DNA of 64,000 nt from Oscillospiraceae bacterium (lineage in GTDB: Bacteria; Bacillota; Clostridia; Oscillospirales; Oscillospiraceae). Both the position numbers and the translations under genes were made by a program. The DNA lies in NCBI GenBank assembly GCA_022792945.1, contig JAAWBZ010000033.1, positions 1-64,000 of the forward strand, written 5' to 3'. The first letter of the stretch is position 1. Each line of letters begins with the position of its first letter. Of this stretch, positions 1,252 to 14,868 are shown piece after piece. The notes beneath the pieces were generated by a model. It was not told the origin of the DNA. It saw only the letters and a list, made by a program, of their open reading frames with translations, and made no database searches.

Positions 1252-3006
1252 CTACACCGCTTCCGTCAGCTCCCGCAGGAACTGACCCACCCGGTGCAGC
1301 TGACCGGGCTTGCACTCGCGCAGCCACGCCGCCTCATAGGCCGGGAGCCACGCCTCCCACCCGGCCCGCACGGCGGCGCGGTCGCCCTCCCCGGCGCGGA
1401 GCAGGACCGTCTCATTGAGCAGGCCGACGGCCCGGGCCGTCAGGGCCAGGTCCTGGTACCGGGGATCGTCCCCCAGGTCGGCGAAGGTCTCCGCCAGCTC
1501 CCGGCAGCGGGCGATGTGGGCGCGGATACGCGGCGGGTCCACATCCAGGGGCTTTTCCGCGCCGCGGCGGCGGGCGCTGAGCCAGGGAACGATCTGCGCC
1601 CACTCGGCGGTGCGCTCGCAGTCGCCCAGGTCCCGGAGCAGCTGCGCCATGTTCAGCTCGATCTGATCGTACAAAAGGGCGCTGACGGCGGCGTCGAAGT
1701 CCCCGTCCGGCCCGCCCAGGGCGTTCCACGCCTTCTCGGCCCCCAGGGCCACGCCGAACTGCTGGCTGTTCCAGCCGCAGATGGCCCCGAAGTCGCCCCA
1801 GTTGGTGTTCAGCAGGCCCGCCGCGCCGTTTTCCAGGCCGCAGCGGGCCATTTTCGTGATGTTCCCGGTGGAGCGGTCGATCTCCTCCACAAAGCGGTTC
1901 CACGCAGAGGTGCCGGGGCAGACCACCTGCGGATGGCCGCACCGGGCGAAGAACCGGACGTGCGCCTCCACCGGCTCCTTGAGATAGCACCAGTTGAGGA
2001 ACACCACGTCCGCCGGCAGCGCCGCCGCCTGCTCCGGGTGATTGAGGACGATGTCGCCCCACATCTGCACCGTCTTGCCGCGGCGCTTCAGATGCTCAAT
2101 CAGCTTTCCCACGAAGCGGACGTACTCCTCGGCAGCGTCCTTGCCGGCGTTGCGGCCAGTGCAGAGGTCGAACGTCTCGTCGCAGCAGATGTTGAAGCGA
2201 TTGCTGCGAAACAGGGGGATATACTGATCCATCAGGGCGCAGATCAGCGCCAGGCTCTCGGGGTTGGAGACGTCGATGGTGTGGTGGTCCATTTTCTCCA
2301 TCCAGTAGTGTTCCGTGGGCCGGTAATCGGGCAGCTCGCAGAGATGGCGGTAGCGCTCGCTGCTCAGCAGGTCGTGGAGGTGGCCGAAGGTGGAGAGGGA
2401 GGGGACCAGCTCGATGAAGTGGAGGTGGCAGTAGTCGTCCAGGGCCAGGATTTCTTCGGTGCTCAGCCGGTCGCCGGGGCCGGTGATCCCGCGGCACTCG
2501 ACGAACTCGTAGTTGCTCTCCACATACAGCTCCAGGCAGTTGACCTTCAGCCGCGCCAGCTCCCGGACCATGTGCCGGAGCTGCTCCAGGGTGGGCACGC
2601 GGCCCCGGGAGACGTCGTGGTAGAAGCCGCGGTCGGCGTAGTCGGGCCGGTCCTCGATCCGCAGGCACGGCAGGGCCGCGCCGAACTCCGAGAGCAGCTG
2701 GTCCAGGGTCTGGAGGCCGTAGAACGCGCCGGCGGGGCCGTCGCCGGCGATGTCCACGCCGTCCTCGGCGATCTCCAGGACGTAACCATCCCCCGCCGCA
2801 CCGTGGCGGATGCGCAGGGGGCGCGCCGCCTCGGCAGCGGTGAGGCGGACGGGCTGGCCGGTCAGGTCCTCCAGCCGGGCCTTCAGCCGTCCGGCGTGGC
2901 AGGCCAGCCGCCGGTCGGTCCCGGCGGGCAGGACGATGGAGAGGGCCGCGGCGTTGCAGACGCCGGCACGGCGGCGGATGGTCTTGGGCATGGGAATGAG
3001 CTTCAT
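1252..3006 (-). CDS. Glycoside hydrolase family 20-like (beta-N-acetylhexosaminidase-like) protein
   Basis: GH20-like motifs DRGFYHDVSRGRVPT, LELYVES, NICCDETFDL (D-E pair). Confidence 0.75.
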   Translation of the reverse strand: MKLIPMPKTIRRRAGVCNAAALSIVLPAGTDRRLACHAGRLKARLEDLTGQPVRLTAAEAARPLRIRHGAAGDGYVLEIAEDGVDIAGDGPAGAFYGLQTLDQLLSEFGAALPCLRIEDRPDYADRGFYHDVSRGRVPTLEQLRHMVRELARLKVNCLELYVESNYEFVECRGITGPGDRLSTEEILALDDYCHLHFIELVPSLSTFGHLHDLLSSERYRHLCELPDYRPTEHYWMEKMDHHTIDVSNPESLALICALMDQYIPLFRSNRFNICCDETFDLCTGRNAGKDAAEEYVRFVGKLIEHLKRRGKTVQMWGDIVLNHPEQAAALPADVVFLNWCYLKEPVEAHVRFFARCGHPQVVCPGTSAWNRFVEEIDRSTGNITKMARCGLENGAAGLLNTNWGDFGAICGWNSQQFGVALGAEKAWNALGGPDGDFDAAVSALLYDQIELNMAQLLRDLGDCERTAEWAQIVPWLSARRRGAEKPLDVDPPRIRAHIARCRELAETFADLGDDPRYQDLALTARAVGLLNETVLLRAGEGDRAAVRAGWEAWLPAYEAAWLRECKPGQLHRVGQFLRELTEAV

Positions 3007-3107
3007 CGGTGGTTTCCCCCATTCGTGATTCTTGCCCCCAGCGTATCACACCGAAAGCCCCCGGGTCAAGGCAAAACGCGAAAAAATTTGGGCGGCGGGG
3101 CGAATCG

Positions 3108-3172
3108 GTCAAATTTGTCGGGGCCTTAGGTTTAATTTGTCGATTGTCACGGGGGCTTCCCTATATTTTAAT
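3108..3172 (+). promoter_or_regulatory. Promoter with tandem 22-bp-spaced direct repeat operator
   Basis: GTCAAATTTGTCG (3108-3120) and GTTTAATTTGTCG (3130-3142), then TTGTCA (3144-3149), N17, TTTAAT (3167-3172). Confidence 0.6.
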
Positions 3173-3202
3173 AAAATCAGAAACAAAAAGGGGGCTTTTC
3201 TC

Positions 3203-4498
3203 ATGAGCGGCAAGGTGCGCATCGGCGTCCTGGGAGCAGGACGCGGCGAGACCATGATGAAATACTGTGCCACGGCGGACAATGCGGCGCTGGTGGCCGT
3301 GTGCGACAGGAGCGAGGAATTCCTGGCCCGGGCCAGGGCCAAGCTGGCGGGCGGGGACATCGCCTATTACACGGATTTTGAAGAATTCCTGCGGCACGAG
3401 CTGGATGCGGTGGTCCTGGCCAACTACGCCACCGACCACGCGTCCTTCGCCATCCGGTGCCTGGCGGCAGGCAAGCACGTCCTCAGCGAGGTGCTCCCCT
3501 GCGAGACCCTGTCCGAGGCCGTGGCACTGGCTGAGGCGGTGGAGAAAAGCGACAGGGTCTACGCCTACGCCGAGAACTACTGCTTCATGCCCGCTCCCCG
3601 GGAGATGCGGCGGCTCTATCGGGCGGGAAAGCTGGGGGAGTTTGAGTACGGCGAGGGAGAGTACTTCCACAACTGCGAGTCCATCTGGCCCTCCATCACC
3701 CGGGGCGAGCCGGAGCACTGGCGCAACCGCATCCACGCTGCCTATTACTGCACTCACTCCATCGGGCCGCTGCTGCACATCACGGGCCTGCGCCCGGTGC
3801 GGGTGACAGGCTTCGAGCTGCCCTACAACCGCCGCTGCGCCCGCTGCGGCGCCCGGGCTGGCCTGGGGGCGGTGGAGATGATCGAGCTGGAGAACGGCGC
3901 GCTGATCAAGAGCTGCCACGGCCTGGGCATCGCCCGGAACTCGGTGTGGTACACCGTCTACGGCTCCCTGGGCCGCCTGGAGAGCGCCCGGGAGGACGCG
4001 GAGCAGGGCGGGACAGGCCGCATCTACGTGAACCTGGACGCCCGGGAGGGGGAGAACGCCTCGAAGGTGGAGACCTACCTCCCCCGGGACGCCCACTCCG
4101 ACGCCGCCGGGAGCTACGGCCACGACGGGTCGGACTACTATGTCATGTGGAACTTCATCGAGAAGATCCGCGGCAACCCTGACGCCGAGACCATCGACGT
4201 TTACGAGGCCCTGGACATGGGTCTGCCGGGCCTGCTGGCCTACCGGTCCATTTTGAACGGCGGCGCGCCGGAGACGGTTCCCGACTTCCGCCATCCGCTG
4301 GCCCGGGAGGCCTGCCGCCACGACACCGCCTGCACCGACCCGGTCAAGGCCGGGGACCAGTACATCCCCAGCTGCTCCCGGGGCAATCCCATCGTTCCCC
4401 CGGAGACCTACCGGCGCATCGCGCGGCTCTGGGAGAGCTCGGCGCGGACGGCCTACGGCGTGGTGACAGAATCACCAAATAAATCAGACGAAAATTGA
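3203..4498 (+). CDS. Gfo/Idh/MocA family oxidoreductase
   Basis: MSGKVRIGVLGAGRGETMM Rossmann start; GKHVLSEVLPCETLSEAVAL motif. Confidence 0.85.
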   Translation: MSGKVRIGVLGAGRGETMMKYCATADNAALVAVCDRSEEFLARARAKLAGGDIAYYTDFEEFLRHELDAVVLANYATDHASFAIRCLAAGKHVLSEVLPCETLSEAVALAEAVEKSDRVYAYAENYCFMPAPREMRRLYRAGKLGEFEYGEGEYFHNCESIWPSITRGEPEHWRNRIHAAYYCTHSIGPLLHITGLRPVRVTGFELPYNRRCARCGARAGLGAVEMIELENGALIKSCHGLGIARNSVWYTVYGSLGRLESAREDAEQGGTGRIYVNLDAREGENASKVETYLPRDAHSDAAGSYGHDGSDYYVMWNFIEKIRGNPDAETIDVYEALDMGLPGLLAYRSILNGGAPETVPDFRHPLAREACRHDTACTDPVKAGDQYIPSCSRGNPIVPPETYRRIARLWESSARTAYGVVTESPNKSDEN

Positions 4499-4526
4499 CG
4501 ATTATGCACAGACCTCACAAAAGAAA

Positions 4527-4592
4527 GTTTAATTTTTCCGGTATGGAGGTTTAAATTTTCAGAATTACAAAAGCCCCGGGGCGCGCTATACT
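4527..4592 (+). promoter_or_regulatory. Promoter with the same tandem 22-bp-spaced repeat operator
   Basis: GTTTAATTTTTCC (4527-4539) and GTTTAAATTTTCA (4549-4561), then ATTACA/TTACAA (4564-4570) and TATACT (4587-4592). Confidence 0.6.
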
Positions 4593-4633: not shown

Positions 4634-6343
4634 ATGAAAAGATGGAACCGTATGCTGGCCCTGTTCCTGGCCGTGCTGACAGCCGCCGCGCTGTTTGCCG
4701 GCTGCGCCAAGGAGGAGGCCGCCCCGGATACCGCCCAGCCCGCCGCCTCCGGCAGCGGCAGCGGTGAGGCCGCCCCCGCCGCCGCCGGCGGCGGGAGCGA
4801 CGAGCTGTACGTGGTGGAGGCCATGCCGCCCAGCGTCATGGTGCCCTACACCCCGGACTCCGCCGTGGGCCAGTACATCGCCGACGAGTTCGGCATCGCA
4901 TTCAAGTTCACCGAGTACTCCGGCGATATCCAGGAGAAGCAGGCGCTGATGCTGGCCGGCCAGGAGTACAACGAGCTGCAGTATATGCAGGGCGAGAACA
5001 TCGTGCAGCAGTACATCAACGCCGGCGCCCTTATCAACCTGGACGACTACAGGGACGTGATGCCCGACTTCTATGAGCGCTACGCCGACATGATCCCCTA
5101 CTGGCGCGCCTCCGCGCCCGACGGCGGGCTGTATAAATTCGAGCGCGACACCCCCTGCCTCACCGAGACCACCTTCCCCCACAACGACATTCTGGTCCGC
5201 TCCGACATCCTGGAGTACTACGGCTGGCCGCAGCTGGTCACCGCCAGCGACTGGAAGGCGTTCCTGGAGCAGGCCCTCATCGACTTCCCCGAGAGCTACG
5301 ACGGCCAGGCCACCGTGGGCCTGACCATGCCCATGGCCGAGTCCTACGGCATTCAGGGCATCGTCCCGGTGGGCTATGAGAAGGGAGACACCTACATCGC
5401 CGCCGGCAACGACTACTATACCTACAACGTCAAGACCGAGCAGTTTGAGGACTACCTCCTCAATCCCGAGGCCAAGGAGTCCTTCCAGTTCTTCAACGAC
5501 CTCTACAAGTCCGGCGTCCTGGACGAGGAGTGCTTCACCGACACCGGCGACATCACCCTCCAAAAGATGAGCAACGGCCGCGCCATCGCCGTGTGGTACG
5601 TCACCTGGAACAAGGACACCGCCAACGCCGCCCTCACCGACGCGGGCCACCCCGAGATGAGCTATATCCAGCAGCCCTTCCAGCTGGATTCCCAGGCGGG
5701 GCAGGACTACGTAATGCCCGTGCGCTATTCGTATCCGTACTACTCCGTGGGCATCACCAGGAACTGCAAGGACCCCGAGCGCCTGTGCAAATTCATCAAC
5801 TGGTGCTGCACCGACGAGGGTCAGATCATTCTCCAGACCGGCCTGGAGGGCGTACACTACACCGTGGAGAACGGCAAGCGCGTGGCCACCGACCTCTTCA
5901 AGCAGTGCACCCTGGACGAGGACACCAAGAAGGCCGAGGGCGTCATCGGCTGCATGGCGATGCTGCCCCTGTGCCATGAGCTGGCCGCTGACGGCCAGCC
6001 CTTCAACCTCAGCGAGACCCAGGCCTTCGTGGACGAGTTCAGCCTCACCGGGCGGGAGAAGGAGGCCTTCGCCGCCCTGGGCTGGGACAGCTCCAACGGC
6101 TGGTGGAACGACCACGGCCGCGGCGTGGACGCCGGGTACTATCAGTCCTGCTCTCTGGACGCCGCGTCGGACCTGGCCAAGGTGGGCGCGAAGATGGTGG
6201 AGACCCGTATCAAATACTCCGCCAACCTTCTGATGGCCGACGACTTTGACGCCGCCTGGAGCGAACTGATGGCGGAATACGACAAGCTGGACCATCAGGC
6301 CGTGATCGACGCGATGAACGCGAATCTGGCCTCCCACCAGTAA
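4634..6343 (+). CDS. Extracellular solute-binding lipoprotein of carbohydrate ABC transporter
   Basis: Signal peptide with lipobox LFAGC; followed by two permease genes. Confidence 0.88.
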   Translation: MKRWNRMLALFLAVLTAAALFAGCAKEEAAPDTAQPAASGSGSGEAAPAAAGGGSDELYVVEAMPPSVMVPYTPDSAVGQYIADEFGIAFKFTEYSGDIQEKQALMLAGQEYNELQYMQGENIVQQYINAGALINLDDYRDVMPDFYERYADMIPYWRASAPDGGLYKFERDTPCLTETTFPHNDILVRSDILEYYGWPQLVTASDWKAFLEQALIDFPESYDGQATVGLTMPMAESYGIQGIVPVGYEKGDTYIAAGNDYYTYNVKTEQFEDYLLNPEAKESFQFFNDLYKSGVLDEECFTDTGDITLQKMSNGRAIAVWYVTWNKDTANAALTDAGHPEMSYIQQPFQLDSQAGQDYVMPVRYSYPYYSVGITRNCKDPERLCKFINWCCTDEGQIILQTGLEGVHYTVENGKRVATDLFKQCTLDEDTKKAEGVIGCMAMLPLCHELAADGQPFNLSETQAFVDEFSLTGREKEAFAALGWDSSNGWWNDHGRGVDAGYYQSCSLDAASDLAKVGAKMVETRIKYSANLLMADDFDAAWSELMAEYDKLDHQAVIDAMNANLASHQ

Positions 6344-6421
6344 CCGCATTTCCGTCCCATGTGGAATCCGCCCAGCGAAGCCGCGTTCGTTGGGCGGATT
6401 CTGACAGCAAGGAGGTCCTCT

Positions 6422-7372
6422 ATGAAAACAACGGAACTGGCGGCCCCGGCGACTGGGCGCAGAAAGCTCTGGCTCCGGGCCAGGCGGCAGAAGTGGCTGT
6501 TTCTGATGCTGCTGCCGGCCTTTGCAACCATTGTGCTGTTCAATTACCTGCCTCTCTCCGGCTGGTATCTGGCCTTCTCGGACTACCGGCTGGGCGGCTC
6601 GCTGTTCGGCGGGGAGTTTGTGGGTCTGAAATACTTTGCGAAAATTTTCCAGGAAAGCTCGGATCTGGCCTACCTGGTCCGCAACACCCTGGTCATCAAC
6701 GGCGTGACCCTGGTCCTGAACCTGGCGGTGGCCCTGGCGCTGGCGATCCTCCTGAAGGAGGCCTGCTGGAAGTTCGGCGCCAAGGCGACACAGACCGTCT
6801 CCTTCTTCCCCTACTTCGTCTCCTGGGTCATCGTCTACTCCATTGTGTGGTCCCTGCTGGCCACCAACTCCGGCGCCATCAACCAGTTTCTGGTGCGCAT
6901 CGGCGTGCTGAAGAAGGGGCTGAACGTGCTGGGGGACCCGAAATACTCCTGGCGGCTCATCATCCTCTTGAATCTCTGGAAGTTCACCGGGTACAACACC
7001 ATCATCTTCCTCTCCTCCATCGCCGGCATCCCCGCCGAGCAGTACGAGGCGGCGACGCTGGACGGCGCCGGGCGGTTCCAGCAGATCCGCTACGTGACCC
7101 TGCCCAACCTGATGCCCACAGCGTCGGTGCTGCTGATTATGAACGCCGGCTGGGTCCTCTCGTCCAACCTGGAGCAGTTCTTCATCTTCAACAACGCCAC
7201 CAACTGGTCGAAGATGGAGGTCCTGGACATGTACATCTATAAATTCGGTCTCAAGATGCTGGACTTCCCCTACTCCACGGCCATGAGCATCGTCAAGACC
7301 GTGGTGAGCATTGCGCTGCTGCTATTCGTCAACTGGCTGACGAAGCGGCTCAACAAGCATTCCGTTCTGTAG
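6422..7372 (+). CDS. Sugar ABC transporter permease (LplB-like)
   Basis: TM protein with EAA loop EQYEAATLDGAGRFQQIRYVTLPNL. Confidence 0.9.
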   Translation: MKTTELAAPATGRRKLWLRARRQKWLFLMLLPAFATIVLFNYLPLSGWYLAFSDYRLGGSLFGGEFVGLKYFAKIFQESSDLAYLVRNTLVINGVTLVLNLAVALALAILLKEACWKFGAKATQTVSFFPYFVSWVIVYSIVWSLLATNSGAINQFLVRIGVLKKGLNVLGDPKYSWRLIILLNLWKFTGYNTIIFLSSIAGIPAEQYEAATLDGAGRFQQIRYVTLPNLMPTASVLLIMNAGWVLSSNLEQFFIFNNATNWSKMEVLDMYIYKFGLKMLDFPYSTAMSIVKTVVSIALLLFVNWLTKRLNKHSVL

Positions 7373-7384
7373 GGAGGGCGCGGC

Positions 7385-8257
7385 ATGGTACGAAAAAAAC
7401 ACGCCGGGGATATTGTATTTGACGTGGTCGCGGCCCTGATCCTGCTGCTGATCTTCATCGTCATGGTGTACCCCTTCCTGTATGTGGTCAACTTTTCCAT
7501 CTCGTCTCTCTCCGAGACCGGCGGGAGCCTGCTGCTGCTGCCGAAGAAGATCACCTTCAGCGCCTACGAGGTCCTTTTGAAGGACGACGCGGTGCTCAGC
7601 GCGTTCTTTATCTCCGCCGCCCGCAGCATTGTGGGGCCGCTCCTGATGGTGGCGGTCACCGGCATGGCGGCCTACGCCCTGGCGACGCCCGACCTGGTGT
7701 TCGGCAGATTTTTCCGCACGGCCTTTGTGCTGACCATGTATGTCTCTGCCGGTGTGGTGCCCACCTATATTTTCATCAAGCAGTATGGGCTGATGAACAA
7801 TTTCCTGGTGTACATCCTGCCCAGCCTGTGCAGCGCCTTTAACCTGATCCTCATCAAGACGTACATCGAGGGCATCCCCCGCTCCCTCCAGGAGGCGGTG
7901 TATGTGGACGGCGGCAGCGACCTGGACGCCTATTGGCGGGTGATCTTCCCCATCTGCCGGCCGGTCAACGCGGCGGTGCTGCTGTTCGGCATCCTCAGTC
8001 AGTGGAACAACTTCATGGACACCCAGCTCTACTGCGCCATGGAGGAAAAGCTCTACACCCTCCAGTATGTCCTCTACAACACCTTGGCCGCCCAGACCAA
8101 CATTGAGGCCCTCAAGGCCGGCGGGGCCATGGCCTCCAGCGGGCAGACCATCAAAATGGCCATCACGGTCATCACCGTGGTGCCGGTAATGTGCATTTAC
8201 CCGTTTTTGCAGAAGCATTTCGTCTCCGGCATTATGATTGGCTCAGTGAAGGCGTAA
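7385..8257 (+). CDS. Carbohydrate ABC transporter permease (YtcP/AraQ-like)
   Basis: TM protein with EAA loop LQEAVYVDGGSDLDAYWRVIFPICRP. Confidence 0.9.
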   Translation: MVRKKHAGDIVFDVVAALILLLIFIVMVYPFLYVVNFSISSLSETGGSLLLLPKKITFSAYEVLLKDDAVLSAFFISAARSIVGPLLMVAVTGMAAYALATPDLVFGRFFRTAFVLTMYVSAGVVPTYIFIKQYGLMNNFLVYILPSLCSAFNLILIKTYIEGIPRSLQEAVYVDGGSDLDAYWRVIFPICRPVNAAVLLFGILSQWNNFMDTQLYCAMEEKLYTLQYVLYNTLAAQTNIEALKAGGAMASSGQTIKMAITVITVVPVMCIYPFLQKHFVSGIMIGSVKA

Positions 8258-8323
8258 AAAAGCCCCCATTGATGGAAATTTGTGGTATACTGGAGGTATC
8301 CCTCCTGAAAGCAGGTGCCTCCC

Positions 8324-10108
8324 ATGAAAAAGACCGCCATGCGCCGCTACCAGAACGCCGGCATCCAGGCCAAAATGACGGCCGCCAGCCTCCTGGTGAC
8401 CATGATCCCCATGCTGATCCTGGAGGGATTGTTCTTCCTGCTGATCCAGCGGGCGACGCTCCGGGAGTTCCGCGGCTCTGCGGAGGTCTACGTCCGGCAG
8501 CTGGAGGAAAACTATGCCGCCGAGCTGGACAAGCTGGAGCATCTGGCCGGGACGCTGGCGGACTTCCGGCTGCTGGAAACGTACCTGACCACGGACTTCC
8601 CCAGCGCCGCCGACGCCTTTCACTACTACCAGCAGAACATCCACCCCATCCTCAAGAACTGCAACAGCGCCTATGAGGGCGTTCGGGTGCGGGTGTATCA
8701 CGGCAACCAGCGGCTGGGGAACTTCTCCTTTGAGCTGAGCAACCGTCTGGACGACCTTTTGCACAGCGGCGCGCTTTCGCCGGCGCAGCTTGGCTCCGAG
8801 GGCGGGTGGGTGCGCGCGGATATGCGCTACAACACCTACCGCCCCGCCTACAGCTACTTCCGCGCCGTGCGGCAGTCGGAGAGTCCCTACGGGCTGGCCT
8901 ATGTGATCTCGCTGCACATGGACGAAAACTCCTTCTACACCCAGATCGCAGGCCAGCCGGAGGAGAGCGCCCTGGTGTTTGTCCTGGACCGGCAGGGCAC
9001 GGTGCTCACCGCCAACCAGCGCGACGCCGTGGGCCTGTGCCTGGAGGACCTGGGCCTGGTGGTCCCGGAGAACTGGGAGCGGGTGAGCTGCGGCGGCGGG
9101 ACCTACGTGCCGGTGTACGCGGAGACCCGGGATTTTTCCATTCTTTACCTGCTCTCCTACGACGGCGTTTTGCAGGAAATGCGCTGGTCGATGCAGATCC
9201 TTCTGATGTCGGGGCTGCTGCTGCTGGTGATCTCCTACCTGCTGATCGCCCGGATTTCCCAGAGAATCGCCGCTGGTCTCCAGAGCCTCAACCGCCGGAT
9301 GCAGAACGTGGACCGGGAGAGCATCCTCTCCATCGCCACGTCCAAGCCCGGCGGCGGCGGCGACGAGGTAGCCCAGCTGGAGGCGGTGTTCATCGCCATG
9401 ATGGCCCGCATCGACCGCCTGATCGAGACCGCCGCGGACCGGGAGCAGTCCCTCAAGGACGCGGTCATCGCCCGGCAGAAGGCCGAGATCCAGGCCCTCC
9501 AGCACCAGATCGACCCCCACTACCTCTTCAACACCCTGGAGGCGCTGCGGATGAACCTGGTCATCAGGGGCGACCGGGAGAACGCCGAGATCGTCAAGCT
9601 CTTCTCTGAGGGCTTCCGGCGGTACATCGACATGGACCGGGAGTATGTGACCCTCTATGAGGAGGTGGAGTTCATCCACAAGTATATCCGCATTCAAAAC
9701 TACCGCCTCAACAACAAAATCCAGTTTGACACCGCCGTGGAGGGCAACGTCCTGGGCTTCCGGGTCCTGAAGCTGCTGCTCCAGCCGCTGGTGGAGAACG
9801 CCGTGTGCCACGGCCTGGAGGCCAAGGAGGGCGTGGGCCGCATCCTGCTGACCATCCGGCGGGAGGGCGAGGTCCTGCGCATCCTGGTGGAGGACGACGG
9901 CGTCGGCATGCCGCCGGAGCGGCTGGAGGCCCTGCGGCGCTCCATCCGCGGCGCGCAGCCGGAAAAATCGGTGGCCCTGCACAATGTCTGCGACCGCATC
10001 CGCCTGGCCTACGGCGAGAGCGCCTCGCTGGACATCCACAGCGCCCCGGGCCAGGGCACCCGCATCACCCTCCTGCTGCCCATCCGGCTGCTGGAGGAGA
10101 GAAAATAA
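8324..10108 (+). CDS. Sensor histidine kinase (YesM/LytS-type)
   Basis: ALQHQIDPHYLFNTLEALRM H-box; HATPase motifs PLVENAVCHGLE, VEDDGVGM. Confidence 0.9.
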   Translation: MKKTAMRRYQNAGIQAKMTAASLLVTMIPMLILEGLFFLLIQRATLREFRGSAEVYVRQLEENYAAELDKLEHLAGTLADFRLLETYLTTDFPSAADAFHYYQQNIHPILKNCNSAYEGVRVRVYHGNQRLGNFSFELSNRLDDLLHSGALSPAQLGSEGGWVRADMRYNTYRPAYSYFRAVRQSESPYGLAYVISLHMDENSFYTQIAGQPEESALVFVLDRQGTVLTANQRDAVGLCLEDLGLVVPENWERVSCGGGTYVPVYAETRDFSILYLLSYDGVLQEMRWSMQILLMSGLLLLVISYLLIARISQRIAAGLQSLNRRMQNVDRESILSIATSKPGGGGDEVAQLEAVFIAMMARIDRLIETAADREQSLKDAVIARQKAEIQALQHQIDPHYLFNTLEALRMNLVIRGDRENAEIVKLFSEGFRRYIDMDREYVTLYEEVEFIHKYIRIQNYRLNNKIQFDTAVEGNVLGFRVLKLLLQPLVENAVCHGLEAKEGVGRILLTIRREGEVLRILVEDDGVGMPPERLEALRRSIRGAQPEKSVALHNVCDRIRLAYGESASLDIHSAPGQGTRITLLLPIRLLEERK

Positions 10109-10126: not shown

Positions 10127-11083
10127 ATGGAACTGGGCACCTATACTACCGCCCTGGGCGACCGCACGCTGGCCGAGGCCTGCGCGTTTCTGGCGGAGCG
10201 GGGCGTGACCCGGGTGGAGCTGGCCTGCGGCGGCTACCCCGGCCGCGCCCACTGCGACCCGGAGCAGCTGCTGGACAACGCCCCGGCGCAGCGGGCGCTG
10301 CTGGACCTGATCCACGGCCACGGCATGGAGATCAGCGCCCTCAGCTGCCACGGCAACGCCGTCCACCCAGACCCGGCGGAGGCCCGGCGCTTCGACCGGG
10401 ACTTCACCCGCGCCATCCTGCTGGCGCGGCAGCTGGGCGTGGAGGTGGTCAACAGCTTCTCCGGCTGTCCCGGCGGCGCGCCGGGGGACCGGACACCCAA
10501 CTGGACCGTCTGCTACTGGCCCGAGGACTTCTCCCGGACGCTCCGGTACCAGTGGGAGGACGTGCTGATCCCCTACTGGAAGGAGAAGGCCGCTTTCGCC
10601 CGGGACCAGGGCCGGAAAATCGCGCTGGAAATGCACCCGGGCTTCTGCGTCTACAACACCAGCACCCTTCTGCGCCTGCGGGAGGCGGCAGGACCGGAGA
10701 TCGGGGCCAACTTCGATCCCAGCCACCTGATCTGGCAGGGCATGGACCCCTGCGTCAGCATCCGGGCGCTGGGGCGGGCCGGGGCCATCTTCCACGTCCA
10801 CGCCAAGGACACCCGCATCGACCCGGAAAACTGCGCCCGCAACGGCGTGCTGGACGGCACCCACTACAGCCGGGAGCTGGAGCGCCCGTGGAACTTCCGC
10901 ACCGTGGGCTACGGCCACGGGGAGGAATACTGGCGGGCCATCCTCCTGGAGCTGCGGCGCAGCGGCTACGACGGCGCGGTGAGCATCGAGCACGAGGACC
11001 CGCTGATGTCCCGCCGGGAGGGGCTGGAGAAGGCCATCGCGTGCCTGCTGCCGCTCATCCTCCGGGACGCGCCCGGCAATTGA
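10127..11083 (+). CDS. Sugar phosphate isomerase/epimerase (TIM barrel)
   Basis: ANFDPSHLIWQGMDP and IFHVHAKDT motifs. Confidence 0.85.
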   Translation: MELGTYTTALGDRTLAEACAFLAERGVTRVELACGGYPGRAHCDPEQLLDNAPAQRALLDLIHGHGMEISALSCHGNAVHPDPAEARRFDRDFTRAILLARQLGVEVVNSFSGCPGGAPGDRTPNWTVCYWPEDFSRTLRYQWEDVLIPYWKEKAAFARDQGRKIALEMHPGFCVYNTSTLLRLREAAGPEIGANFDPSHLIWQGMDPCVSIRALGRAGAIFHVHAKDTRIDPENCARNGVLDGTHYSRELERPWNFRTVGYGHGEEYWRAILLELRRSGYDGAVSIEHEDPLMSRREGLEKAIACLLPLILRDAPGN

Positions 11084-11113: not shown

Positions 11114-12163
11114 ATGGAACACAAACTCGCGCTGATCGGCTTCGGCGGCATGGCCGGCTGGCATCACGACCTGATCGAGCGCATCGACGGCCTCACCGTC
11201 GCCGGCACCTGGGACATCCGCGAGGAGCGCCGCGCCCTGGCCCGGGAGAAGGGCCTGCGCGTCTACCGGAATTTTGAGGACCTGCTGGCCGACCCCGCCG
11301 CGGACCTGGCCCTGGTGGCCACGCCCAACGACCTGCACCGGCCCCTGGCCATCGCCGCCATGGAGGCGGGCAAGCACGTGGTCTCGGAGAAGCCCGTGAC
11401 CCTCTGCTCGGAGGACCTGCGGGCCATGACCGAGGCGTCCGAGCGCACCGGGCGGCTGTTCACCGTCCACCAGAACCGGCGGTGGGACGAGGATTTCCTG
11501 ACCATCCGTGAAATTCTCGCCGGCGGCAGGCTGGGGGAGGTGCACCGTATCGAGTCCCGGGTTCACGGCGCCCGCGGCATCCCCGGCGACTGGCGGCAGG
11601 AGCCGGAGCACGGCGGCGGCATGGTGCTGGACTGGGGCGTGCACCTGCTGGACCAGGCGCTGCAGCTCTTCCCCGGGGTGAAGCTCACCTCGGTCTACGC
11701 CAGCCTCACCCACGTCACCAATCAGCTGGTGGACGACGGCTTCTCCGCGGAGCTGGCCTTCGCCAACGGCGTGCGGATGCTGGTGGAGGTGGGTACCAGC
11801 AACTTCCTCGCCCTGCCCCGGTGGTACGTCCTGGGCCGCGACGGCTCGGCGCGGATCGCCGGCTGGGGCGCGGACGCGGAGATCGTCCGGGCTGTGGGCG
11901 AGAGCGAGCGGGATGTGGTCCCGGTGCGCACCGCCGCCGGCCTCACCAAAACCATGGCCCCCCGCCGGCCCGACAGCATCCGCAGCGAAACTGTCCCCGA
12001 GGTCAAAAGCGACATCCGCGAATTCTGGCAGAACGTCATGGCCGCTGTGGAGGGCCGCGAGGCGCCCCGCGTCCGGCTGGACGAGGCGGCCCGGGTCATG
12101 CGGCTGATGGAGGCCGTCTTTGCCTCGGACAGGGCCGGACAGGCCGTGGCCTTCGAGGCATAA
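11114..12163 (+). CDS. Gfo/Idh/MocA family oxidoreductase
   Basis: LALIGFGGMAGWH and EAGKHVVSEKPVTL motifs. Confidence 0.9.
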   Translation: MEHKLALIGFGGMAGWHHDLIERIDGLTVAGTWDIREERRALAREKGLRVYRNFEDLLADPAADLALVATPNDLHRPLAIAAMEAGKHVVSEKPVTLCSEDLRAMTEASERTGRLFTVHQNRRWDEDFLTIREILAGGRLGEVHRIESRVHGARGIPGDWRQEPEHGGGMVLDWGVHLLDQALQLFPGVKLTSVYASLTHVTNQLVDDGFSAELAFANGVRMLVEVGTSNFLALPRWYVLGRDGSARIAGWGADAEIVRAVGESERDVVPVRTAAGLTKTMAPRRPDSIRSETVPEVKSDIREFWQNVMAAVEGREAPRVRLDEAARVMRLMEAVFASDRAGQAVAFEA

Positions 12164-12174
12164 GAGGGAGCGCC

Positions 12175-12939
12175 ATGTACCGAGTTATGATCGTGGACGA
12201 CGAGCAGATGGTCCGCCAGGGCCTGCAGCGGCTCATCGACTGGGAGGCCTACGGCTTCCAGGTGGTCCAGACCGCCGCCAACGGCCAGGAGGCGCTGCAA
12301 TGGCAGCGCCGGCAGCACTTTGACCTGGTGGTGACCGACCTCAAGATGCCGCTGATGGACGGCGTGGAGCTGGTGCGGCAGCTGTCCCTGGCGGGGGAGA
12401 GGTGCCGGATCATCATTGTCAGCGCCTACGGGGAGTTCTCCTACGCCCAGGCGGTGATGCAGTACGGCGTGCAGTATTACCTGCTCAAGCCCATCAGTGA
12501 GGAGGTCCTCTGCGGCTACCTCAGCCGCATCGCCGAGGAGCTGGACGCCTGCGCCGAGCCTGAGCCGGCGCCCGACGCGCCCCAGGACAAGCGCTTCGAG
12601 CACCTCTACCGCCTCTCGGCCAACGGCGTCATCGCGGAGATCCTCCGCTACATCTCCGACCACTACAGCGAGCCGCTGACGCTGAACCTCCTGGCGCGGC
12701 TGTACAGCTTCAGCCCGGTGTATCTGGGGCGGCTGTTCAAGAAGGAGACCGGCGTCTCCTTCAACGAATACCTCAACAGCTTCCGCATCCGCGCGGCGGT
12801 GGAGTACCTGGACGCCGGGACGTACATGGTCTACGAGATCGCGGAGAAGGTGGGCTACCGCGACATCAACTACTTTTACAAGTGCTTCAAGGCCATCGCC
12901 GGGACCACCCCCGGCGAGTACAAAAACCGGAAAGGATAA
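12175..12939 (+). CDS. Response regulator with AraC-type HTH output (YesN-like)
   Basis: MYRVMIVDDEQMVRQGL receiver; C-terminal LGRLFKKETGVSFNEYLNSFRI AraC HTH. Confidence 0.93.
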   Translation: MYRVMIVDDEQMVRQGLQRLIDWEAYGFQVVQTAANGQEALQWQRRQHFDLVVTDLKMPLMDGVELVRQLSLAGERCRIIIVSAYGEFSYAQAVMQYGVQYYLLKPISEEVLCGYLSRIAEELDACAEPEPAPDAPQDKRFEHLYRLSANGVIAEILRYISDHYSEPLTLNLLARLYSFSPVYLGRLFKKETGVSFNEYLNSFRIRAAVEYLDAGTYMVYEIAEKVGYRDINYFYKCFKAIAGTTPGEYKNRKG

Positions 12940-12943
12940 CGCC

Positions 12944-14110
12944 ATGGCCAGAATCACTCAGCTGGACCCCAACCTCCGCCAGAGCGGCGGCGGCAGCGGC
13001 CCCATCCGCTATCTGCCCCTGGACGCCCCGGGCCTGCGGGTCACGGGGCTGCTGGGCTGGGAGGAGGAACAGGTCCTCCACCGCCTGCCCCGGGCCTATC
13101 GGGCGGTCTTTGAAACCGTCAACCCGGCCGTCGCCGCCCTGGGCCGCGACACCGCCGGCGGGCAGCTGTCCTTCCGCTCCGATACCAGAGCCCTCTGGCT
13201 GCGGGCGGAGCTGGAGGCCCCCGTGGAGCTGTGCCACATGACCGCCATCGGTCAGGGGGGCTTCGACTGCTACGCCGGGACGGACCGGCGGGACCTGGCC
13301 TTCGTGGGCGTGAGCAAGTTTCCCCCCGCGGCGCAGAGCTACCAGTGCGAGCTGGTTTCACATCAGGCCCTCCGCGCCCTGGACCGGGGCGCGCCGGGGC
13401 GGAAATTCCACGAGTTTACGGTCAATTTCCCGCTGTACTGCGGCGTCAGGCGCCTGGAGATCGGCGTGGACCCCGAGGCGGCGGTGCTGCCGCCGTCGCC
13501 CCCCGCGCAGCCGGGCAGCCTGGTGTTTTACGGCACCAGCATCACCCAGGGAGCCTGCGCCAGCCGCCCGGGGCTGAGCTATCCGGCGCTGCTGTCCCGG
13601 GCGCTGGGCCTGCCGGCCTACAACTTCGGCTTCTCCGGCAACGGCCTGGGGGAACCGGAGATGGCGGCGCTGCTGAGCGAGATCCGGGACCCCCTCCTCT
13701 ATATGATCGACTACGAGGCCAACGCCGGGGAGCGCGGCTGCCTGGAGGCGACGCTGGAGCCGCTGGTGCAGCGGCTGCGGGAGGCGCATCCGGAGACGCC
13801 GGTGCTGGTGGTGTCGAAGCCAGCGTCCCTCTTTGATGCCCTGGATCCGCGGAAGCGAGTCCAGTGGATGCACCTGCGGCGGTTTCAGCGGGAGACGGTG
13901 CGCCGGCTGTGCGCCGAGCTGGGGCGCGTGGCGTTCCTGGACGGCCAGACGCTGCTGCCCCAGGAGCCGTGGGACCTAACCGTCGATCTGGTGCACCCCA
14001 CGGACACCGGGTTCGCGGAGATGGCCCGGGGGATGCTGCCGGCGGTCCGTGAGCTGCTGGACGAGCAGCCGCTCTGCGCCCTGGCGAGGACCGCGGGCAC
14101 AAGCGGCTGA
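12944..14110 (+). CDS. SGNH/GDSL hydrolase family protein
   Basis: VFYGTSITQGACAS, NFGFSGNGL and VDLVHPTDTGF blocks. Confidence 0.85.
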   Translation: MARITQLDPNLRQSGGGSGPIRYLPLDAPGLRVTGLLGWEEEQVLHRLPRAYRAVFETVNPAVAALGRDTAGGQLSFRSDTRALWLRAELEAPVELCHMTAIGQGGFDCYAGTDRRDLAFVGVSKFPPAAQSYQCELVSHQALRALDRGAPGRKFHEFTVNFPLYCGVRRLEIGVDPEAAVLPPSPPAQPGSLVFYGTSITQGACASRPGLSYPALLSRALGLPAYNFGFSGNGLGEPEMAALLSEIRDPLLYMIDYEANAGERGCLEATLEPLVQRLREAHPETPVLVVSKPASLFDALDPRKRVQWMHLRRFQRETVRRLCAELGRVAFLDGQTLLPQEPWDLTVDLVHPTDTGFAEMARGMLPAVRELLDEQPLCALARTAGTSG

Positions 14111-14302: not shown

Positions 14303-14357
14303 TATAATTTTTGTGGATAAATCGAGTACAAATTTTTCGATTTACAAAAATTTGTAC
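14303..14357 (+). promoter_or_regulatory. Extended -10 promoter followed by a perfect palindrome
   Basis: TGCTATAAT with TATAAT at 14303-14308; GTACAAATTTTT (14326-14337) / AAAAATTTGTAC (14346-14357). Confidence 0.55.
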
Positions 14358-14391
14358 AGATTTGCGGCCTCCGGCCGCAGGAGGGGGCGGC

Positions 14392-14868
14392 GTGGTGGCG
14401 CATTCGAGGAAGAAACTGGATTTGACCGGACAGCAATTTGGCATGCTGACGGTGATGCACCCGGCGGAGAATATCGGAAAGCGGACCGCCTGGGTCTGCC
14501 ACTGTGACTGCGGGCGGGAGGCGGTGGTCAAGACGTGCCACCTGCGCTCCGGCCACACCACCAGCTGCCGCTGCCGCCGGGCCGCCGCCAGCGGCCGCCC
14601 GGATTTGAACTATATGGACGGCACCTGTGTGGAGATGCTGCGGGCCAAGACCGTCCGGCGCAACAACACCAGCGGCGTCCCGGGCGTTGATTGGCGGCAG
14701 TCCAAGCGTACATGGCGGGCGTCCATCTGCTTCAAGGGCAAGCGCTACTACCTGGGCAGCTACCAGGATTTTGACGACGCCGTGGATGCCCGCAAGCGCG
14801 CAGAGGCGGAGCTGCATGACGAGTTCGTGATGCAGTTCGACCGGGCGCGGGGCGGCAGGACCACCTGA
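14392..14868 (+). CDS. AP2-domain-like DNA-binding protein (phage/homing-endonuclease-type)
   Basis: Cys-rich CHCDCGREAVVKTCHLRSGHTTSCRC then NNTSGVPGVDWRQSKRTWRASICFKGKRYYLGSYQDFDDAVDARKRAE; GTG start after AGGAGG. Confidence 0.7.
   Translation: MVAHSRKKLDLTGQQFGMLTVMHPAENIGKRTAWVCHCDCGREAVVKTCHLRSGHTTSCRCRRAAASGRPDLNYMDGTCVEMLRAKTVRRNNTSGVPGVDWRQSKRTWRASICFKGKRYYLGSYQDFDDAVDARKRAEAELHDEFVMQFDRARGGRTT

Follow-up and report, generated by a model that had tools for sequence, protein, structure and literature searches.

AraC-type two-component sugar systems are numerous in gut Firmicutes, and most of their operators are unknown. In the one-component relatives of these regulators, the AraC I1-I2 and XylS Pm operators consist of two direct-repeat half-sites 21 bp apart, with the proximal half-site overlapping the -35 element. 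Among the AraC-type two-component regulators of Caldicellulosiruptor bescii, three out of five have large-spacer tandem sites upstream of promoters, an arrangement read as activation (PMC8579813). For the CuaSR system of Ruminiclostridium (Clostridium) cellulolyticum, it has been described that CuaR activates a transporter operon and that the cuaD-cuaS-cuaR operon is constitutive (PMC5663094), and for XydSR of the same species that xydRS is not autoregulated (PMC3572039).

The locus that we analysed lies in a 64,000-nt stretch of DNA from an Oscillospiraceae bacterium, which is called the window throughout. As in CuaSR and XydSR, an AraC-type response regulator is encoded beside sugar transporter or glycanase genes (PMC5663094, PMC3572039). 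The combination of a PF06580 kinase with a receiver-AraC regulator resembles the YesMN-type systems of Firmicutes, an assignment by domain make-up only, and the PDB sequence match was 3lsg (yesN). All features are compiled in Table 1.

Genes and tandem repeats of the locus

Table 1 Features of the sugar-uptake locus in the window. P1 and P2 are the promoters of the first oxidoreductase gene and of the solute-binding protein gene, respectively.
Feature	Position	Strand	Remarks
GH20 family protein	1252-3006	-	Divergent
P1 upstream half-site GTCAAATTTGTCG	3108-3120	+	First 11 bp invariant across 4 loci
P1 promoter-proximal half-site GTTTAATTTGTCG	3130-3142	+	22 bp downstream of the P1 upstream half-site
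P1 -35-like TTGTCA	3144-3149	+	Assigned from sequence and alignment
P1 -10-like TTTAAT	3167-3172	+	Spacer of 17 from TTGTCA
Gfo/Idh/MocA-family protein	3203-4498	+	Predicted P1 target; closest solved relatives are GH109 proteins
P2 upstream half-site GTTTAATTTTTCC	4527-4539	+	GTTTAATTT invariant across 4 loci
P2 proximal half-site GTTTAAATTTTCA	4549-4561	+	Conserved core GAGGTTTAAA, starting at 4546
P2 core promoter ATTACA-N17-TATACT	4564-4592	+	
Extracellular solute-binding protein	4634-6343	+	Predicted P2 target; lipoprotein-like signal
ABC transporter permease, UgpA/MalF-like	6359-7372	+	
ABC transporter permease, MalG/UgpE-like	7385-8257	+	
Kinase promoter extended -10 TGGTATACT	8283-8291	+	Overlaps the claimed half-site 8276-8285
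Sensor histidine kinase, YesM type	8324-10108	+	His_kinase PF06580 and HATPase_c
Xylose-isomerase-like TIM barrel	10127-11083	+	Match to 2-hydroxy-3-keto-glucal hydratase 8ro4
Gfo/Idh/MocA oxidoreductase (second)	11114-12163	+	
Response regulator, YesN type	12175-12939	+	Receiver domain and AraC double helix-turn-helix; proposed binder
SGNH/GDSL esterase	12944-14110	+	GxDLY N-terminus

The response regulator carries PF00072, PF12833 (HTH_18) and PF00165 (HTH_AraC) above the cut-off, corresponding to the YesN type, and the membrane kinase encoded with it has the PF06580 and HATPase_c domains of the YesM type. Beside the GH20 gene, we noticed genes for a GH109-related protein, a TIM barrel related to 3-keto-glucal hydratase and a second Gfo/Idh/MocA oxidoreductase. 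This gene set suggests an oxidative (3-keto) glycoside-cleaving pathway for an amino-sugar glycan; the TIM-barrel match and the two Gfo/Idh/MocA proteins hint at a 3-keto-glycoside route, as a lead rather than a result. Furthermore, a perfect 12-bp inverted repeat (GTACAAATTTTT/AAAAATTTGTAC, arms 8 bp apart) is located at 14326-14357 and coincides with, or immediately precedes, the start of a small ORF, which spans 14311-14868 unless it begins later. The window yielded no Rfam match.

The first-pass annotation had reported four 13-mers, starting at 3108, 3130, 4527 and 4549 and arranged as two pairs with a 22-bp period, and we located all four there, with 22 bp in both pairs. The identity sum of this quartet is 60/78. 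When the two intergenic regions were shuffled and periods of 14-44 were searched, this score was reached in none of 2000 dinucleotide shuffles (maximum 54) and none of 2000 local block shuffles (maximum 53). The similarity of the four repeat copies is not due to chance.

Conservation, geometry and rarity of the doublets

A scan of GTDB species genomes returned three close relatives of the regulator, 74-76% identical and all from Lachnospiraceae MAGs. Two of the corresponding loci (L005 and L009) possess all ten tested genes in near-identical order, with the regulator directly after the kinase. The third is represented by two contigs of one genome (G301), L023 from the GH20 gene to the second permease and L004 from the kinase onwards, which jointly hold the same gene set. 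The kinase adjoins the regulator in L004, L005 and L009, and two genes lie between them in the window. The TDLKMP motif of the receiver is conserved in five regulators, and of the ten genes that L005 has in common with the window, only that for the response regulator encodes a DNA-binding domain. In L004, an extra AraC-domain gene (~2914-3740), not seen in the other loci, immediately follows the response regulator.

Conservation in orthologous promoters had been set beforehand as the test on which the proposal could fail, and we found the doublet at both P1 and P2 in all three orthologous loci, with the same placement, while the intergenic DNA around the doublets has diverged. In the P1 alignment, 22/22 core columns are invariant versus 48/177 outside (Fisher 9e-12), and in the P2 alignment 17/22 versus 43/116 (Fisher 5e-4), P values that express a contrast rather than independent trials because the relatives are congeners. 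Since the three relatives belong to one small genus, of which four species were sampled, the comparison is effectively one of two lineages with limited independence. Positions 1-2 (GT) and 5-6 (AA) are invariant in 16/16 half-sites, AG precedes the P1 proximal half-site and AGGTTTAA is present in all eight doublets. The 3' half of the P2 proximal half-site varies among the loci. Of the 13 bp, the first 11 are invariant at 3108, and at 4549 GTTTAAA alone is conserved.

The half-sites are direct repeats with a period of 21 or 22 bp in all eight promoters, as in the ~21-bp tandem of AraC/XylS-type operators. The period at P2 is 22 bp in all four loci. At P1, only the window has 22 bp and the three relatives have 21 bp, so that the "exactly 22" of the first-pass annotation is no rule. 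An inferred -35-like hexamer lies next to the proximal half-site in 8/8 promoters, which is the AraC/XylS-type placement. Counted from where the proximal half-site starts, it begins 14 bp downstream in seven of them, including P1 of the window, where the offset is the same as in L005, L009 and L023, and 15 bp downstream at P2 of the window (14 in the orthologs). Upstream of P1 (3007-3107 in the window), we also noticed a TTGAC -35-like element of the divergent GH20 gene. Its distance to the P1 tandem is 43 bp in the window and 21 bp in the three relatives, a change of 22 bp or two helical turns. Possibly, the GH20 promoter is served by the P1 tandem as well.

The window's own genome (3.27 Mb, 305 contigs, 84% complete) was searched by pattern scans with ≤3 mismatches. 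With the pattern GTTTAATTTKTC-N10-GTTTAATTTKTC, a genome scan of the kind suggested as a check returned the P1 and P2 doublets only, and the reversed-pattern control returned none. Single half-sites (≤1 mismatch) numbered 19, compared with 24 for the reversed control; the doublet is the informative unit because single half-sites are no commoner than this control. Among most of the 19 half-site matches, none outside the locus had a partner of more than 7/12 at 20-23 bp that would have indicated a wider regulon. Among 397 sampled genomes of the relatives' family, a P2-type doublet (≤1 mismatch) was present in two, and these were precisely the ones that had yielded a regulator of this type. In the window's family, a looser P2-type pattern (≤2 mismatches) was present in 2/301 genomes, namely the window genome and one isolated match with 2 mismatches. 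These counts demonstrate rarity and locality rather than binding, since the patterns were derived from these very sites and the regulator lies in the same locus.

The solute-binding protein had no ortholog at E≤1e-60 in the 301 genomes of the window's family and was not found in five congeners of the window genome. Regulator homologs in this family are 37-43% identical and have different gene surroundings in the stretches examined, and the 397 genomes of the relatives' family held no further orthologs beyond G301 and G302. Horizontal transfer of the locus or an assembly binning error would explain why the binding protein was not found in the sampled genomes of the window's family and the orthologs are from Lachnospiraceae.

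The local response regulator as candidate activator

For the kinase promoter, a single related half-site, AAATTTGTGG, had been claimed. It exists at 8276-8285, where it abuts the -10 element TATACT (8286-8291), but the orthologous kinase promoters (L004, L005, L009) have a TGnTATAMT-like extended -10 in common and lack AAATTTG. As an operator half-site mediating autoregulation, AAATTTGTGG was rejected, since it is not conserved upstream of the kinase gene; it more plausibly belongs to the extended -10. The kinase and regulator genes would consequently not be under the doublet operator, matching the reports of a constitutive cuaD-cuaS-cuaR operon and of xydRS without autoregulation (PMC5663094, PMC3572039).

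We consider it highly probable that the doublets serve as operators of the local YesN-type response regulator, which would activate P1 and P2. The doublets consist of same-face half-sites that extend up to the -35 element, they are conserved and specific to this locus, and the regulator is encoded in it. These parts of the AraC-type operator reading in the first-pass annotation hold, and the kinase half-site and the strict 22-bp period drop out of it. The predicted chain from ligand and phosphorylation to binding and activation would begin with the kinase, which would sense a signal and phosphorylate the regulator. The two half-sites, at a distance of 21-22 bp, would then each be occupied by a regulator molecule on the same face of the DNA, and the proximal molecule would reach the -35 box and contact RNA polymerase, switching on the oxidoreductase gene from P1 and the binding-protein/permease operon from P2. 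The kinase and regulator genes would be read from their separate promoter, and because this promoter has no operator, their expression is probably steady.

Co-occurrence alone is also compatible with another regulator, because the regulator and the sites share one locus. Binding by a different protein, either a one-component AraC-type regulator encoded elsewhere or a global factor, could draw on the extra gene in L004 of G301, the C-terminal part of which matches the AraC domain of the regulator (35%), and on the other response-regulator-like candidates of the window genome (55 at first look). We regard it as unlikely, since no such extra gene was seen in the window, in L005 or in L009, the presence of just two doublets in the genome is unlike a global factor and the half-site differs in a paralogous system that has a regulator of its own. 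The local regulator might instead act as a repressor, given that a proximal half-site of ~17 bp, the length of an AraC half-site, would overlap the -35 element by 2-3 bp. However, the sites occupy the activator position of AraC/XylS proteins, which is also that of the Caldicellulosiruptor two-component tandem sites (PMC8579813), and repression appears quite improbable.

A/T-rich cores that immediately precede the -35 element in a GC-rich region, with about two helical turns between them, are furthermore what would be expected of phased UP elements or bent DNA raising promoter strength without a specific protein. This explanation is very improbable in view of the conserved G at half-site position 1 (16/16) and mostly at position 10, the AGG before the proximal site and the TTTAA core, the TpA step of which disfavours A-tract bending; moreover, a generic element would occur at more than two promoters of a genome of 3.27 Mb. 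That A/T-rich promoter flanks resemble each other by chance, for which the low-complexity cores might speak, has a negligible probability in the face of the shuffle tests, genome scans and conservation across orthologs.

A paralogous system and comparison with known regulators

G301 also has a second related system (L022 and L024, contig C14), in which the regulator is 56% identical to that of the window, the first oxidoreductase 68% and the permeases 66-72%. Its oxidoreductase and binding-protein promoters have a tandem of their own in common, with a period of 21 and half-sites close to GTCAAAATTTTTTT and G(A/G)CATTATTTTTTT; promoter-like hexamers come after it at a distance similar to that in P1 and P2. 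The score of this tandem was reached in none of 500 block shuffles. A different half-site in a similar geometry would follow from each regulator recognizing a tandem of its own. We give about even chances to the idea that the paralogous kinase-regulator-transporter regulons diverged by half-site change while the operator geometry was kept similar. If this is true, GTTTAATTTGTC of the present system and GTCAAAATTTTTTT of its 56%-identical paralog from the same genome would together be a starting point for working out the code by which AraC-type response regulators recognize DNA. The second solute-binding protein of the G301 locus (62% identical) also has GTTTAATTTGTC upstream (L004 10182-10240), with a degenerate possible partner only, ~21 bp on.

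One such system now has a specific predicted operator and promoter geometry, plus a paralog with a different half-site, and two promoters of one locus together with a few orthologs suffice to define an operator of this kind. The regulon had been called undescribed: neither the motif nor the locus came up in our search of the open-access literature, outside of which most subscription journals lie, but the architecture has already been described for Caldicellulosiruptor and CuaSR.

The two-turn direct-repeat layout at the -35 element is shared with AraC and XylS, which differ in being one-component, ligand-binding regulators and in their unrelated half-site sequence. As in the reading proposed for the window, CuaSR and XydSR act on a target operon and their own operon is not autoregulated (PMC5663094, PMC3572039). 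Cua differs by an added sensory solute-binding protein, and a word search found no tandem operator for CuaR (PMC5663094); the XydR sites, unlike the doublets of the window, were not resolved to a consensus (PMC3572039). Like the window, BxgRS and other systems of C. bescii combine a kinase and an AraC-domain regulator beside a CUT1 sugar ABC transporter with tandem-repeat sites that are conserved ahead of the promoter elements; organism, sugars and genes differ, and the likeness is one of layout (PMC8579813). Compared with these systems, the kind of control is known and the landing sequence is newly predicted.
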